Below, in pieces: positions 9,420 to 16,622 of a DNA stretch of 34,289 nucleotides (within the stretch, counting starts at the first letter, position 1; each line of letters starts with the position of its first letter). The stretch is from Deltaproteobacteria bacterium (GTDB taxonomy: Bacteria > Desulfobacterota > Desulfobulbia > Desulfobulbales > BM004). The stretch spans positions 1 to 34,289 of the forward strand of contig JAHEID010000006.1 of the NCBI GenBank assembly GCA_024639555.1, read 5' to 3'. The notes below the pieces were generated by a model. It had not been told where the DNA came from. It made no database searches and worked only from the letters and a program-made list of their open reading frames with translations. Position numbers and translations under genes: made by a program.

Positions 9420-10274
9420 CTAAACCTTGATATGCCATGGTTCAAAACGTACCCCCTTGAGGTTGTCCTTGGGGTAACGGATAGTGACATAGTCCATATC
9501 TTCAAGTTTCTTAAAAACTTCTGTAGTTGTAAATTTTCCCGTAAAATTTAAAGCTCCAAAGCCGGTCTGCCCCACATCGAAATCAGCAATGCCATGATAA
9601 GAATACCCAGGAGGAGCTAAAGAACGGGAGGCCAGAGAGAGGTTGCCATTATTGATGTGAGCCTTATCGAGGAAGAGCAAAAACTGTTTGACCACGCCCC
9701 TTATACCGGAAGTCAGGTATAACTGGTCCCCCACACGCTTTCTTAATTTTTCATACATTTCGCGGGGTTTGCCTTTGTAGAGATAATTTCCGGACCCTGA
9801 GATATTCACCACCTTTCTTTCATTGATACGGGTGGTTATGCTGTCAATAGGTTTTTCGCCCCAGAAACCATAGATAGCGCTATCGCTGTAAAAAATCTTT
9901 TCCAAGAAGTCCTGTTCCTCCTTGGTGAAACTTCCTACTTTGGGATATCTGCGGGCAATTGCCAAGCCCTCATCAAAGCTCAGAATATTAAAATTGCCGT
10001 GTCCCGCCATACTCTGGAGTCGTTTCAGCCTCGAAACGCATGCATTGAGAAGGGATAGTTGTTTATTTTCGAGAATTATATCCCCTGAATGGGGATGGTC
10101 AAAATTGTCCATCTTATGAAGATAGTCTTTGATATGGCCATCAAAGTCCGGCTGGGAGAGCCGTTGGGGTGGAGGAAACAACTGGGCGGCAGATGCAAAG
10201 GAAAACGGGTCAATACCACTGAGGAGGACACCAGCCGTTGCAGCTTTTAAAAAATCTCTTCTTTTCATTTTCAT
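9420..10274 (-). CDS. Tat-exported M15-type (VanY/DUF882-like) murein peptidase
   Basis: Tat signal RRDFLKAATAGVLLSG; SYHGIADFDVG and FEPWHI resemble the M15 zinc-peptidase motifs. Start at MKMKRRDFL rather than 10358. Confidence 0.8.
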   Translation of the reverse strand: MKMKRRDFLKAATAGVLLSGIDPFSFASAAQLFPPPQRLSQPDFDGHIKDYLHKMDNFDHPHSGDIILENKQLSLLNACVSRLKRLQSMAGHGNFNILSFDEGLAIARRYPKVGSFTKEEQDFLEKIFYSDSAIYGFWGEKPIDSITTRINERKVVNISGSGNYLYKGKPREMYEKLRKRVGDQLYLTSGIRGVVKQFLLFLDKAHINNGNLSLASRSLAPPGYSYHGIADFDVGQTGFGALNFTGKFTTTEVFKKLEDMDYVTIRYPKDNLKGVRFEPWHIKV

Positions 10275-10364
10275 GCAGCCCCAAAACAAGTCTGTAACAT
10301 CTTTCCCTGTTATTGGCCCCTCCACATTTTGGTCACAGGTCAATACTCTCCCCTGCATTGGCTA

Positions 10365-10456
10365 TATACATAAATCTATTTATCCACATAAGTCTATTGT
10401 ACTTTGGTATTAAATTGTTTTTTTTAGAAAATTTATGCTGATCGAAATTTATGCAT
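10365..10456 (-). repeat. Copy 1 of a ~95-bp intergenic element, upstream of the M15-type peptidase gene
   Basis: Reverse complement aligns along its length with 14032-14134: TAAATTTCGATCAG, poly-A run, ATACCAAAGTACAATA, TTATGTGnAnAAATnGATTTATGT. Confidence 0.8.
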
Positions 10457-10741
10457 ACAGTAATAAATTTAACATGAGAGGCAGCTTCCTCATTAAGGAA
10501 TTGCGTTCCCATGAAACCTTTTGCAGTCATTTTTTTAAAAAAATGATAATAACAGCGACTAATTTGAATCTCAAGAAAAAATTGCAGGCGTAAATACATG
10601 CCCCGCAGATTTTTTCCCGGCAGGAAGATTTTTTTGAGAGTTGTAGCGCTGTTTTGGGACTTATGGTATGCTCCCGCCTCTCTTTGAGGATCAGCACCAG
10701 TATCCCTTCGAAACCGATAAAATAAAGGATTGTGCAATAGT

Positions 10742-12427
10742 ATGGGTAACGAACCACAGAAGATTATCTACTCCATGATCGGAGTAAGCAAGTTTTATAA
10801 TAAAAAGCCGGTCATCAAAGACATCAGTCTTTCTTTTTTCTATGGCGCTAAAATTGGGGTGCTGGGGCTGAACGGCTCCGGCAAGAGTACCGTCCTGCGA
10901 ATCATGGCGGGTGTTGACCATGAGTACAACGGCAGAATAACTACAACTCCCGGGTTCACCATTGGCTACCTTGAACAGGAACCTCTAGCAGGAGAAACAA
11001 AAACTGTTTTAGAAGTTGTCAAGCAGGGCGCACAAGAACAGGTCGACCTGCTGGCGGAATTTAACGATATCAATGCGAGGTTTGCAGAATCCCTGGACGA
11101 TGCTGCAATGAACCAGCTCATTGAGCGCCAGGGAGAGGTCCAGGAAAAACTTGACAACTTGGATGCCTGGGATATTGAGAGCCGGCTGGAAATGGCCATG
11201 GACGCCCTGCGCTGCCCCCACGGGGACACGTCCGTCAATGTGATATCAGGTGGAGAGCGCCGCCGGGTGGCTCTCTGCAGACTGCTTCTTCAAAAACCAG
11301 ACATCCTGCTGCTCGACGAGCCTACCAATCATCTGGATGCTGAATCGGTGGCCTGGCTGGAGCATCATCTGCAGCAATACGAAGGTACAGTCATAGCCGT
11401 TACCCATGACCGCTATTTCCTGGACAACATTGCCGGCTGGATTCTTGAACTGGACAGGGGACACGGCATCCCCTGGAAGGGCAACTATTCTTCTTGGTTG
11501 GAACAGAAGCAGAAAAGATTGCAGCTTGAAGAAAAACAGGAGAGCGATAGACAGAAGACACTTCAGCGCGAGCTGGAATGGATCAGGATGTCGCCCAAGG
11601 GCAGGCATGCAAAAGCCAAGGCCAGGATCAGTTCCTATGAAAACCTGCTCAACCAGGAGACGCAGAAAAAAATCCGGGACCAGGAGATCTATATCCCCCC
11701 TGGCCCGCGGCTGGGCAAAAGCGTTATTGAAGCCGACCATATCTCCAAGGCCTTTGGAGACAGACTGTTGTTCGAGGATATGAACTTCAAACTGCCTCCT
11801 GGAGGTATTGTCGGGATCATCGGTCCCAACGGTGCCGGCAAGTCAACCCTGTTCAAAATGATAACCAACCAGGAACAGCCGACCTCCGGTTCCATCAGAC
11901 TTGGCGATACGGTCAAACTCGCCTATGTTGATCAGAGCCGCGATGCCCTGGGTCCTGACAAATCTATCTGGCAGGTCATTGCAGATGGGGAGGATACCAT
12001 CACTCTGGGTGACCGTGAGGTAAACTCCCGGGCCTATGTGGCACGTTTCAATTTCTCCGGTTCCGACCAGCAAAAAAAAGTGGGCCAGCTTTCAGGGGGC
12101 GAGAGGAACAGGGTGCACCTGGCCCGTATGCTGAAAGAAGGAGCCAATGTGCTTTTACTGGATGAACCGACAAACGATCTTGATGTCAACACCCTGCGGG
12201 CCCTGGAAGAGGGTTTGGAGCATTTTGCCGGCTGCGTGGTTGTCATCAGTCATGACCGTTGGTTTCTTGACAGGATAGCCACCCATATCTTGGCCTTTGA
12301 AGGGGACAGCAAAGTAGTCTGGTTCGAGGGCAATTACTCTGAGTATGAAGCAGACCGCAAGAAGCGGCTCGGGGCTGCTGCAGAACAGCCGCGCAGGATA
12401 AAATACCGCCAGTTGACCCGCGCTTAG
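10742..12427 (+). CDS. ettA: ABC-F ATPase, energy-dependent translational throttle protein EttA
   Basis: Two Walker A (GLNGSGKST, GPNGAGKST), two signature motifs (SGGERRR, SGGERNR), PTNHLD/PTNDLD, EttA-like architecture. ORF opens at 10730. Confidence 0.95.
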   Translation: MGNEPQKIIYSMIGVSKFYNKKPVIKDISLSFFYGAKIGVLGLNGSGKSTVLRIMAGVDHEYNGRITTTPGFTIGYLEQEPLAGETKTVLEVVKQGAQEQVDLLAEFNDINARFAESLDDAAMNQLIERQGEVQEKLDNLDAWDIESRLEMAMDALRCPHGDTSVNVISGGERRRVALCRLLLQKPDILLLDEPTNHLDAESVAWLEHHLQQYEGTVIAVTHDRYFLDNIAGWILELDRGHGIPWKGNYSSWLEQKQKRLQLEEKQESDRQKTLQRELEWIRMSPKGRHAKAKARISSYENLLNQETQKKIRDQEIYIPPGPRLGKSVIEADHISKAFGDRLLFEDMNFKLPPGGIVGIIGPNGAGKSTLFKMITNQEQPTSGSIRLGDTVKLAYVDQSRDALGPDKSIWQVIADGEDTITLGDREVNSRAYVARFNFSGSDQQKKVGQLSGGERNRVHLARMLKEGANVLLLDEPTNDLDVNTLRALEEGLEHFAGCVVVISHDRWFLDRIATHILAFEGDSKVVWFEGNYSEYEADRKKRLGAAAEQPRRIKYRQLTRA

Positions 12428-12562
12428 AGTAAATTTAAATATTTTTCGGCATTTCTTTTTTTACCCTTGCCAATTATCCATCCAGTACTTACCGTTAGGT
12501 AAGTTTTGCAGTCCTGATAACAAATATCAACTAATAATAATTACCATACTGGAACTACTGTA

Positions 12563-12988
12563 ATGAAAAGAATCGTAGCCCTGACAATCTCTGCATTTCT
12601 GTTTGTTTTTCTTGGTTCACAATTGGCCCCTGCCGCGCAACCGCAGTTCCCTGGTTTGGAAGAACAGCACTCTCTTTTTAAAACGGTGACCCCTCAAGAG
12701 GCTCAGAATCTCATTGAAAGCCGCAAAGACATTCTGCTTATAGACGTCCGCGGTCAAGACGAATTGAGTGAAGGCTATATAGCGGGTTCAACCCTGATGC
12801 CACTTTGGAGCATCATTAAGGGCACCGAACGCCCCCCCCAAAACAAACCAATTCTGCTTATTTGTGCTGTTGGCGGCCGCTCCCTGGCACTGGGCCAGCT
12901 CATGTCGAAAAACGGCTGGGATGAGGTCTATAACCTCAAGGGCGGCATCTCAGCCTGGAAGGACGCAAAACTTCCATTGAAATACTAA
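12563..12988 (+). CDS. Exported rhodanese-like domain protein
   Basis: Signal peptide; ILLIDVRGQDELSEGYIAGSTLMPL, active-site-like ILLICAVGGRSLALGQLM, NLKGGISAWKDAKLP. Confidence 0.93.
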   Translation: MKRIVALTISAFLFVFLGSQLAPAAQPQFPGLEEQHSLFKTVTPQEAQNLIESRKDILLIDVRGQDELSEGYIAGSTLMPLWSIIKGTERPPQNKPILLICAVGGRSLALGQLMSKNGWDEVYNLKGGISAWKDAKLPLKY

Positions 12989-13125
12989 CCGACTGACTAA
13001 AGGTTAAAGGTTAAAGATTTAAAACTGTAAGCTGTTTATCTTAAAGGTACTGAGAGTTTAATGCTTGGTACCATATAAAAACAAAAGCGATAAATCCGGG
13101 CCCTCTAACCAATCCTTTTCGCATT

Positions 13126-13794
13126 TCACGCAGATGTACAACGCTGGATAAACTTTTCCACATTAATACACACCCCATTCCAGTCTTCTGCACTCACTGC
13201 CTGCTCGCCAAAGAGTGAAATGCCGACACCTACTGCTGCTGCCCCTGCCTGCATATATTCCCGTGCATTTTCAAGGGTCACACCGCCGACTGCCACGAAA
13301 GGGATATGATCAAAGGGACCGCAGAGTTCCCTGATATAGTGCGGTCCTCCAAGAGCCCGGCATGGAAAAACCTTAACCATTGCAGCTCCAGCCTCCCAGG
13401 CCCTGTATACTTCTGTCGGGGTTAAGGCTCCGGCAATAACAGGAATACCTTTAGTTCGGGCTAATTCTATGACTTCAGGGTCTGCATTCGGGGTGACAAT
13501 AAACATGGCACCGGCTTCATAGGCCTTTTGGACTTCCAGGGGGTTGCGGATAGTACCCATGCCCAGGTACTTTCCTGCTGGAACGCGATCTCTGTTAGCT
13601 GCAATTATTGCTTCAGCCCCTGGCGTATTCATGGTTACTTCGATGGCCTGCAGTCCAGCAGAAAAAGCGGCCTGCATAAGAAAGCTGAACCGACCAGCCT
13701 CAATACCACGTAAAATACCAATTACCTGAACATCCAAATTCAGGGAGTACTGCTCGCCGGACAGCATAGTTGCATCTGTTTCACTATTTGCCAT
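13126..13794 (-). CDS. eda: 2-dehydro-3-deoxyphosphogluconate / 4-hydroxy-2-oxoglutarate aldolase (KDPG/KHG aldolase)
   Basis: GLQAIEVTMNTPGA, GMGTIRNPLEVQKAYEAGAMFIVTPNADPEVI, VIAGALTPTEVYRAWEAGAAMVKVFP, FVAVGGVTLENAREYMQAGAAAVGVG. Confidence 0.93.
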   Translation of the reverse strand: MANSETDATMLSGEQYSLNLDVQVIGILRGIEAGRFSFLMQAAFSAGLQAIEVTMNTPGAEAIIAANRDRVPAGKYLGMGTIRNPLEVQKAYEAGAMFIVTPNADPEVIELARTKGIPVIAGALTPTEVYRAWEAGAAMVKVFPCRALGGPHYIRELCGPFDHIPFVAVGGVTLENAREYMQAGAAAVGVGISLFGEQAVSAEDWNGVCINVEKFIQRCTSA

Positions 13795-13846
13795 GGGTAT
13801 CTTAATTAGCCTAACCAGGACGTTGTGTAAAGAATTATAGTCAGGG

Positions 13847-13880
13847 ACAGACCCCTCCCTGCATGCCGGGAAGGGTCTGT
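13847..13880. repeat. REP-like hairpin
   Basis: ACAGACCCCTCCC ... GGGAAGGGTCTGT, 13-bp arms with one mismatch, 8-nt loop. Confidence 0.6.
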
Positions 13881-14031
13881 TTGTTCATTGCTAATGTTGC
13901 CCCGGCATAAGATTGCTGGAAGACAACATTAGGGTAAGGCTTCTGAAATTCTTCACATTTTTTCTCCTGATAAATACTTTCCTCCTCAAAAATAATCATT
14001 TTGTAACCCATATATAATTTTAAAGGTGTTG

Positions 14032-14134
14032 CATGCTTAAATTTCGATCAGTAAAATTTTTCTATAAAAAAACACAATAATATAGTACCAAGGTACAATA
14101 TATTTATGTGCACAAATTGATTTATGTGCATAAT
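14032..14134 (+). repeat. Copy 2 of the intergenic element, upstream of the M99-like peptidase gene
   Basis: Matches the reverse complement of 10365-10456; contains GTACCAAGGTAC dyad and TTATGTG twice at 18-bp spacing. Confidence 0.8.
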
Positions 14135-14178: not shown

Positions 14179-14313
14179 ATGCAACTTATACAGAGAGTGT
14201 TAGCAATATTTCCTGCAAAGGTTTTCATCTCAACTTGTTTGTCGAAACTGGTGAGAGCTGAATCACAGGTCTATTCCTGCATCTTGGTAAAGGAGAAAAG
14301 CCTTGAAAATTAG
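14179..14313 (+). CDS. Possible 44-aa small ORF (MQLIQRVLAIFPAKVFISTCLSKLVRAESQVYSCILVKEKSLEN) overlapping the downstream gene start
   Basis: AAAGGAG 5 nt before the ATG; stop at 14311-14313 overlaps the TTG start at 14303 in another frame. Not in the supplied ORF track. Confidence 0.4.
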   Translation: MQLIQRVLAIFPAKVFISTCLSKLVRAESQVYSCILVKEKSLEN

Positions 14314-15799
14314 AATTTCTGCCATATGGTTCTTAACTCTTCTGCTGTCTTTTATTATTGTTCATGCCAGCAGCCAAGCCCAGGTAATCCATGAGGTTTT
14401 CCTGCCCAACACAGACCACGAACTTAACGTCTACCGGATATTCGGCGAACAACCGGGCAAAACAATCATGATCATTGGAGGCATACAGGGGGACGAACCT
14501 GGTAGCTATATGACAGCGGACCTCTATGCAGATATCCATCTCAAGAAAGGCAATCTCATAGTTGTGCCCCGGGCAAACTTTTATTCAATATTGCTGAATC
14601 AGCGCGAAGGGTTGACCGGTGATATGAACCGCAAGTTCGGCGTAAACGGTAATTTGAAGAAAAGCCTTGATGAAGAAGTTGTCATCGTCCTGAAGCACCT
14701 TATTGCTGAAAGCGACCTCCTGCTCAACCTCCACGAGGGCTCCGGTTTTTATTCCCCAACCTGGATTAACAATATGGAAAACCCCAAGCGCTACGGCCAA
14801 TCCATCATCTACGATGCAGAGGCCCATTCGCTGCCGGATAACCAGGGATCGATCAACTTGGGCGGTCTGGCCAGAAATGTCATAAAAAAAGTAAACAGCC
14901 AGATTGAAAACAAAAGGTACCACTTCAGACCCAACAACCATAACACGATATCTGAAAAAACCAGCCACCCTGAGCAAAGACTATCAGCTACACACTATGC
15001 TCTCACCCAAGCCCTTATACCTGCCTTTGGTGTTGAAACCTCAAAAACCATAGATAAACTTGAAGTGAAAATTTCCCTGCATAAACTTGTTATCAATACC
15101 TTCATGGAAATGCTCGGAATAGAATTGGATACACCGGGACTGGATTTGAAAAAACCAAAACTTGCTTATCTCCTCATCAAGGTCAATGATGGCCCTGCCC
15201 TTGCCATGCCCCATGGCTCAACCCTAAAAATCAAGCCGGGGGACGTGGTCCTCGTCACAGATATCATTGCAAATTACAAGCGTGGGATGGTTGCTGACAT
15301 AAACGGCTTGGGCAATAAAAATGACACCAACATCCCTTTCAGTATATCAAAAGACACTAAAGTCATCGTGCGAAAGGATTCGGAAAAATGCGGCTGGGTT
15401 GCACTGGAAGTTGGCGTTCCTGATTCAGTCCAGCCTGCAATTGTTGCCAGCGTTGATCATGCTGCCATAAAGGCGGAAGAACTTATCGTTAATGTGAATG
15501 ACTCGATCGAAACCCTTCCCGCCGGCGCCACGCTGTTCGTAAAAAAAGACAGCCGGCTGATCCTCAAGGGAATCAGAACGAATATTCCCCATTTGGACAG
15601 CGATGTTTTCATCAATTTTAAAGGCTTTGCACCACCGACGTCTGCTAATGACGGAAATGATCTCGACTACCCCATATACACCAACCAGGATCTCTGGACC
15701 CGCTATTCTGTTAACAAAAAAGGGAAACTTTACCCTGTAATCGCCACTTACAATGACAAAAAAATTGGTGAGTTCTGGGTAGAACTTGCAAGTAATTGA
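14303..15799 (+). CDS. Exported M99/Csd4-like zinc carboxypeptidase
   Basis: Signal peptide; GGIQGDEPGSY (QxxE), NRKFGVNG, LLLNLHEGSGFYSP; TTG start preceded by AAGGAG. Confidence 0.82.
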   Translation: MKIRISAIWFLTLLLSFIIVHASSQAQVIHEVFLPNTDHELNVYRIFGEQPGKTIMIIGGIQGDEPGSYMTADLYADIHLKKGNLIVVPRANFYSILLNQREGLTGDMNRKFGVNGNLKKSLDEEVVIVLKHLIAESDLLLNLHEGSGFYSPTWINNMENPKRYGQSIIYDAEAHSLPDNQGSINLGGLARNVIKKVNSQIENKRYHFRPNNHNTISEKTSHPEQRLSATHYALTQALIPAFGVETSKTIDKLEVKISLHKLVINTFMEMLGIELDTPGLDLKKPKLAYLLIKVNDGPALAMPHGSTLKIKPGDVVLVTDIIANYKRGMVADINGLGNKNDTNIPFSISKDTKVIVRKDSEKCGWVALEVGVPDSVQPAIVASVDHAAIKAEELIVNVNDSIETLPAGATLFVKKDSRLILKGIRTNIPHLDSDVFINFKGFAPPTSANDGNDLDYPIYTNQDLWTRYSVNKKGKLYPVIATYNDKKIGEFWVELASN

Positions 15800-15973
15800 T
15801 CATTTTATATTTGCAGCACAAAACTTTATGAAATTTCTCTAGCGCCATTTCTTCTGTCTTATGCATTAAGCTTTCTTCTTCTTCCATCACCTTTCTATGC
15901 CGGGGAAGCAGTCATCTATAAGATAAAATCAGATTAAGCTCAGTCAACATTACCAATGCACACCTGAACACAT

Positions 15974-16277: not shown

Positions 16278-16622
16278 ATGCAGGCGCTTAAAGAACGACG
16301 GAAACATGAGCGGTTCAGTGCAAACCTATCCTGTGTACTTGTTTCGCCGTTAATGGTGCTATCATATGAAGTATTGGATATCAGTAATTCCGGTCTGGCG
16401 TTTAGTTATGCCGGTTGGGAGAATTGGCCAAGGAAAGGGATAAGACTTGATTTCATCAACCAGAATCTCTACCTGGAGGATATACCAATCCGCATAATAA
16501 AAGATGTTCAACTTAATGATGAATCAAAAAAGCTGCGCCGTTGTGGTGTCAAGTTTACTGATTTAAATGCCCAGCAGCAGGCCCTGGTGAAGCAGTATAT
16601 TGAGAGTGTCACGGCTAACTAG
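16278..16622 (+). CDS. PilZ domain protein
   Basis: RRKHERF, VLDISNSGLAF, RRCGVKFTDL typical of PilZ c-di-GMP-binding proteins. Confidence 0.9.
   Translation: MQALKERRKHERFSANLSCVLVSPLMVLSYEVLDISNSGLAFSYAGWENWPRKGIRLDFINQNLYLEDIPIRIIKDVQLNDESKKLRRCGVKFTDLNAQQQALVKQYIESVTAN

Follow-up and report, generated by a model that had tools for sequence, protein, structure and literature searches.

A shared element precedes two murein-peptidase genes

The window, the whole stretch of DNA analysed here, is 34,289 nt long and forms contig C34 of G000, a Desulfobulbales metagenome-assembled genome (MAG) of 2.42 Mb in 233 contigs that is 85% complete. It carries two murein-peptidase genes, one of the VanY/M15 and one of the M99 family, and each is preceded by a copy of the same element, copy 1 (the reverse complement of ~10365-10456) lying before the VanY gene and copy 2 (14033-14134) before the M99 gene. 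The genes and the parts of the two copies are:

9420-10358, minus strand: VanY/M15 D-Ala-D-Ala carboxypeptidase with a Tat-like signal (PF02557, 1.6e-10)
10394-10412, minus strand: putative operator dyad of copy 1 (TAATACCAAAGTACAATAG), ahead of the VanY gene; second-best site in the window
10391-10396, minus strand: predicted -35 box of copy 1 (TAGACT), at the dyad-relative position that is fixed in 37 adhesin promoters
10367-10372, minus strand: predicted -10 box of copy 1 (TATGTA), placed by geometry; weak and uncertain, with the final T missing, and identical with the second unit of the TTATGTG repeat
14083-14101, plus strand: putative operator dyad of copy 2 (TAGTACCAAGGTACAATAT), ahead of the M99 gene; best site in the window
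14099-14104, plus strand: predicted -35 position of copy 2 (TATATT, weak), from adhesin-promoter geometry
14123-14128, plus strand: predicted -10 position of copy 2 (TATGTG, a weak, non-canonical hexamer), from adhesin-promoter geometry
14303-15799, plus strand: Peptidase M99, a Csd4-like carboxypeptidase (PF17033, 5.6e-33)

The two copies are genuine and homologous, far above chance, with 81% identity and a local alignment score of 101, where the best of 1000 shuffles reached 39. The earlier note's observation of one element ahead of two murein-peptidase genes is thus borne out, and Pfam confirms both the VanY/M15 and the M99 assignment. The core common to the copies consists of a promoter to which a 12-bp dyad, GTACCWWGGTAC, is fused. 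The dyad described for both copies is indeed shared, although the version in copy 1 is imperfect (ATACCAAAGTAC), and the TTATGTG repeat with its 18-bp spacing is real, although the second unit in copy 1 reads TTATGTA. The weakly inverted ends that had been suggested did not hold up, as no convincing terminal inverted repeats are seen in the element. A block upstream of the dyad, TTTCGATCAG (window 10430-10450 and 14038-14052), is common to copies 1 and 2 and to the C29 and C27 promoters of G001, the sister species of the window's species; its spacing to the dyad is variable, at ~36-44 bp. No Rfam family, the c-di-GMP-I riboswitch included, matches the window copies.

The dyad marks LapA-type adhesin promoters across the order

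The first lead to a wider role was a match in another family of the order, where two dyads precede a retention-module protein. Among 53 retention_LapA loci surveyed across the Desulfobulbales, GTACCNNGGTAC is found upstream with at most one mismatch in 37, as against 4 of 265 shuffles. With a longer consensus and up to four mismatches, a site is present at 47 of the 53 Lap adhesin loci, compared with none of 40 weak retention-like loci used as controls and 1 of 279 shuffles. An exact scan of the order yields 26 sites, and the reversed pattern yields none. Outside the window's genus, 11 genomes have such a site, and in every one of them it lies directly before the adhesin.

A scoring matrix was built from 46 adhesin sites, all from outside the genus (training range 16.5-32.6 bits). 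It ranks copy 2 first (26.9 bits) and copy 1 second (26.6 bits) in the window, and the G001 ortholog of the copy 1 dyad scores 24.3 bits. The third score, 18.9 bits, is the copy 2 palindrome read backwards, the next independent site reaches 10.8, and the shuffled maximum is 4.7. These scores tie the murein genes to the adhesin operator independently of the alignment from which the element was first recognized.

The complete Lap system (LapA retention module, LapB/LapC/TolC, LapD and LapG) was found in a single locus in G228 (C174), and partial versions occur in other genomes. In two genomes, G008 and G004, the Lap adhesin gene has an RpoH-like sigma factor gene immediately upstream (L037 2509-3435, L039 2221-3198).

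Promoter geometry and leaders

When 37 adhesin promoters are aligned on the dyad, a TTGACA-like -35 box begins 8 bp from its centre and T-A-n-n-n-T follows at 31, with a 17-bp spacer. Of the 47 adhesin sites, 43 have TAnnnT at a distance of 30-32 bp from the centre of the dyad (shuffles: mean 4.7, maximum 12). This fixed distance between the dyad and the -10 box places the dyad near -42, where class II activators bind (centre -41.5 to -42.5). The adhesin promoters thus have the class II arrangement, and in the window copies the -10 part of it is weak. A TACAAT within the dyad was considered as a -10 box and rejected, given that in the adhesin promoters the peak of TAnnnT lies 31 bp downstream from the centre of the dyad.

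Some leaders in the sister species resemble riboswitches for cyclic diguanylate (c-di-GMP). Aptamers similar to c-di-GMP-I-GGC lie at the predicted transcription start in G001:C175 (L299 2308-2382, minus strand; 34.2 bits, E 1e-4) and G001:C130 (L301 239-312, plus strand; 31.3 bits, E 7e-4), where the Rfam cut-off is 59. A weak GEMM-like match in the G001 Csd3 leader (C62, 17.9 bits) is also at the predicted start. Separately, a sub-threshold match to a molybdenum-cofactor riboswitch lies behind the G001 PilZ gene (L035 4996-5118; 27 bits, cut-off 36).

Sites within the genus

The named relatives are Desulfobulbaceae, Desulfobacterales and Deltaproteobacteria MAGs (PKTW01, CAMYKS01, JAFDCR01, JAFDCT01, JAUXHH01). 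Sites with at most two mismatches were counted, because counts at three mismatches equal those of the reversed control in most genomes; the G001 VanY site (three mismatches, orthologous to copy 1) was added.

G000 has six strong sites in 2.4 Mb, each directed toward a gene start. Those beyond the window precede a Sel1-repeat gene (C44), a decayed M99 remnant followed by a Sel1 gene (C181), an exopolysaccharide sugar transferase (C221) and a small protein (C69). In G001, sites precede VanY, M99, PilZ, Sel1, a zinc-ribbon protein and a GalU-like protein, the last named from its sequence. Other G001 sites lie before an M23 peptidase that carries a Csd3_N2 domain, an AAA_22 (ExeA-like) protein and two secreted proteins, one MORN-like and one of the TSP_3 type. 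In G003, G004, G007 and G008 the site is ahead of a Lap adhesin, a small protein or a secreted protein. The genus total is about 22 promoters; all 22 readable sites are directed at a gene start, and one further site, on G001 C106, falls at the edge of a contig. Genus-wide conservation is limited to the core TAGTACCAAGGTACAATAGATTTAT, and the TTATGTG repeat is restricted to G000 and G001.

The proposal of a shared promoter or operator linking two hydrolases therefore stands in part. The element is a promoter with an operator-like dyad, which lies at a fixed distance from -10 before Lap adhesins throughout the order, but it is not a dedicated link between the two genes. The regulon looks like a biofilm and c-di-GMP set into which murein peptidases were recruited, rather than one of murein genes alone.

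Most likely, the VanY and M99 genes both gained the element in the line leading to G000 and G001, since it is absent upstream of VanY in G005, G007 and G008 and of M99 in G008. G008 also has two tandem M99 paralogues with no operator (G008:C14:38367-41045; L080, L082). A peptide-pattern search of the genome contigs for M99 gave no match.

Some of these promoters are homologous by duplication. Copy 2 shows ~83% identity to the C44 Sel1 promoter over ~195 bp, into the Sel1 signal-peptide region, and copy 1 has 162 bp in common with the G001 PilZ promoter at 74%. Window 15643-15903 matches C181 at the junction of the M99 gene end and the Sel1 gene start (L031 5861-6118 in G000:C181, and the reverse complement of L035 2729-2980 in G001:C110). 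The decay is reciprocal, with M99 and a Sel1 remnant retained in the window and Sel1 and M99 remnants in C181, which indicates that a promoter-M99-Sel1 unit was duplicated and that each copy lost the other gene. The notion that the element "landed" in both promoters is thus correct insofar as part of its spread was by promoter duplication, but not as a mobile repeat. Two window features belong to this history:

14179-14313, plus strand: 44-aa leader open reading frame (ORF) that overlaps the start of M99 and is a relic of the signal peptide of a Sel1 protein (from the match to the C44 promoter and signal-peptide region)
15800-15903, plus strand: remnant of a Sel1-repeat gene start behind M99 (blastn of 15643-15903 against G000:C181, 75% identity, 3.6e-44)

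The leader ORF has a good ribosome-binding site and its stop overlaps the TTG start of M99; its translational coupling to M99 is possible. Downstream of M99, and in the same orientation, is a gene with a PilZ domain, of the c-di-GMP receptor type (16278-16622). The true start of VanY is probably the ATG at 10274 or 10268 (MKMKRRDF...) instead of 10358, because the alignment to homologues from four other genomes of the genus does not begin until query residue 22, 27, 30 or 86; the exception is the homologue in the sister species G001, which aligns from residue 3.

A candidate regulator and its relation to VpsT

The G007 Lap locus has a LuxR-family gene after lapB- and lapC-like genes, and the order lapB-lapC-luxR recurs in G001, G002, G003, G008 and G228 (fully annotated in G228 only). 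Among 251 genomes surveyed, the regulator is found in 57. Regulator gene and site occur together in 39 genomes, one without the other in 3 and 5, and neither in 32. The protein belongs to the LuxR/NarL family and has a receiver-like N-terminus (GerE PF00196; NarL 1a04, 2.5e-14; VpsT 3kln, 1.2e-10). Like its sequence, its predicted fold resembles NarL and VpsT (Foldseek 3klo, 1.3e-10), and in an alignment by eye the receiver has a His where the phospho-accepting Asp is expected.

The c-di-GMP-binding motif of VpsT is W[FLM][TS]R. The T-box bound by VpsT in Vibrio cholerae is published as W-R-[CG]-Y-W-W-R-[GC]-Y-W (PMC8754643), and TACCWWGGTA matches it at 10 of 10 positions (chance ~1/1024). 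The likeness thus extends from the LuxR/NarL-type regulator to a full match to the W-R-S-Y-W-W-R-S-Y-W palindrome and to targets with biofilm and surface functions, often with c-di-GMP. Unlike the T-box, the site here is far less degenerate and is locked at ~-42 to the promoter. The Desulfobulbales regulator gene also differs in lying within a lapB-lapC cluster and in having murein peptidases among its putative targets.

Work on Lap/Dvh c-di-GMP adhesins in Pseudomonas and Desulfovibrio treats post-translational control by LapD and LapG (PMC13090378, PMC11784015). The Desulfobulbales loci resemble these systems in the retention-module adhesin of the LapA type, LapB/LapC/TolC secretion, LapD and LapG, whereas those papers were not found to describe a linked LuxR regulator or a conserved operator for the adhesin. 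Large LapG-cleaved adhesins of V. cholerae are under c-di-GMP-responsive transcription factors (PMC6890996), and the part of that account drawn on here reports no operator common to adhesin and murein genes. In Erwinia amylovora, EagA, a murein M23 endopeptidase, is required for aggregation and its transcript rises with c-di-GMP (PMC7705223). EagA likewise ties a murein peptidase to c-di-GMP and aggregation, in another genus and gene context, and no VpsT-like operator appears in the part of that study drawn on here. A literature search found no described transcriptional control of Lap adhesins in the Desulfobulbales.

Discussion

The overall explanation favoured here, with a probability of roughly 0.72, is that an activator-dependent promoter of the adhesin type was reused before wall and exopolysaccharide genes. 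The element would be a sigma70-type promoter whose operator is the dyad TWGTACCWWGGTACAAT, centred ~42 bp before the transcription start and abutting the -35 box. Ancestrally, it would have served the giant LapA-type biofilm adhesin of the Desulfobulbales. We infer that a LuxR-family protein binds the dyad, that it activates rather than represses, and that c-di-GMP controls it. The binder would most likely be the VpsT/CsgD/NarL-like regulator whose gene accompanies lapB-lapC in the adhesin locus, and the signal would most likely be c-di-GMP. Within the window's genus this promoter would have been duplicated, or have newly arisen, before the wall-remodelling peptidases VanY, M99/Csd4 and M23/Csd3, and further targets would include exopolysaccharide genes (sugar transferase, GalU), PilZ, Sel1, MORN and small proteins. 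Envelope remodelling would then be activated along with adhesion, and biofilm formation probably sets in together with wall shaping. A bolder version, held only tentatively, is that a promoter with a VpsT-like operator, reserved for the adhesin in the rest of the order, multiplied in one genus, partly by copying of promoter with leader, so that three families of cell-shape murein peptidase (M15/VanY, M99/Csd4, M23/Csd3) and exopolysaccharide genes came under the adhesin switch, with a second c-di-GMP checkpoint at some targets in the form of a GEMM-like riboswitch at the first transcribed base.

Several points weigh against this explanation. The window's own MAG yielded neither regulator nor adhesin, which may be due to its incompleteness, and in G001 the adhesin evidence is an RTX C-terminal fragment only. 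The -35 and -10 hexamers of the window copies are weak (TATGTR at -10), and every riboswitch match is below the Rfam gathering score. The site occurs without a detected regulator in five genomes, and the co-occurrence of regulator and site is confounded, both being part of one locus. The regulator also lacks the c-di-GMP motif of VpsT, with W[VLIF][GN]Q in its place in most homologues and the VpsT WLTR aligned to WLGQ.

It is conceivable, if rather unlikely, that the dyad and promoter are real but serve another binder, such as a MerR- or LexA-type protein or the RpoH-like sigma factor, and that the LuxR protein controls something else. The GTAC-N4-GTAC half-site spacing does also occur in MerR and some LexA operators, and the sigma factor gene adjoins the adhesin in two genomes. 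MerR dyads, however, lie between -35 and -10, a geometry that was rejected here on the position of the dyad upstream of -35; the targets are not SOS genes, and a sigma factor would need no palindrome beside a normal -35/-10 pair. It is the LuxR gene, not the sigma gene, that recurs at Lap loci (recurrence of the sigma gene was not surveyed).

A repeat like a miniature inverted-repeat transposable element, landed by chance in two promoters, could account for the ~100 bp common to both copies and for the similarity beyond the core among several G000 and G001 copies. Judged by copy number, orientation and terminal repeats, that origin is very improbable: there are six strong copies in the genome, all pointing to gene starts, the core is kept in other families of the order, and the extra homology runs into leader and signal-peptide sequence, as gene duplication predicts. 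No more credible is an operator consisting of TTATGTG-N11-TTATGTG and bound by an unknown murein-dedicated factor. The repeat is present in both window copies and their G001 orthologues, but it is missing from the G003, G004, G007 and G008 sites, the G001 M23/Csd3 site and the adhesin promoters. Being restricted to one lineage, found also before Sel1 and PilZ genes, and with its second unit on the -10 position, it was rejected as the operator.

For the Lap adhesins of the Desulfobulbales, the reuse of an adhesin-type promoter provides an operator that can be tested and a candidate activator, and it suggests that one switch is common to biofilm commitment and peptidoglycan remodelling. The growth of the regulon is unusually readable: repeated use of a single promoter took it from roughly one target in each genome to roughly ten. 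If true, this would be a traceable case of regulon expansion by promoter duplication, linking cell-wall shaping to surface attachment.

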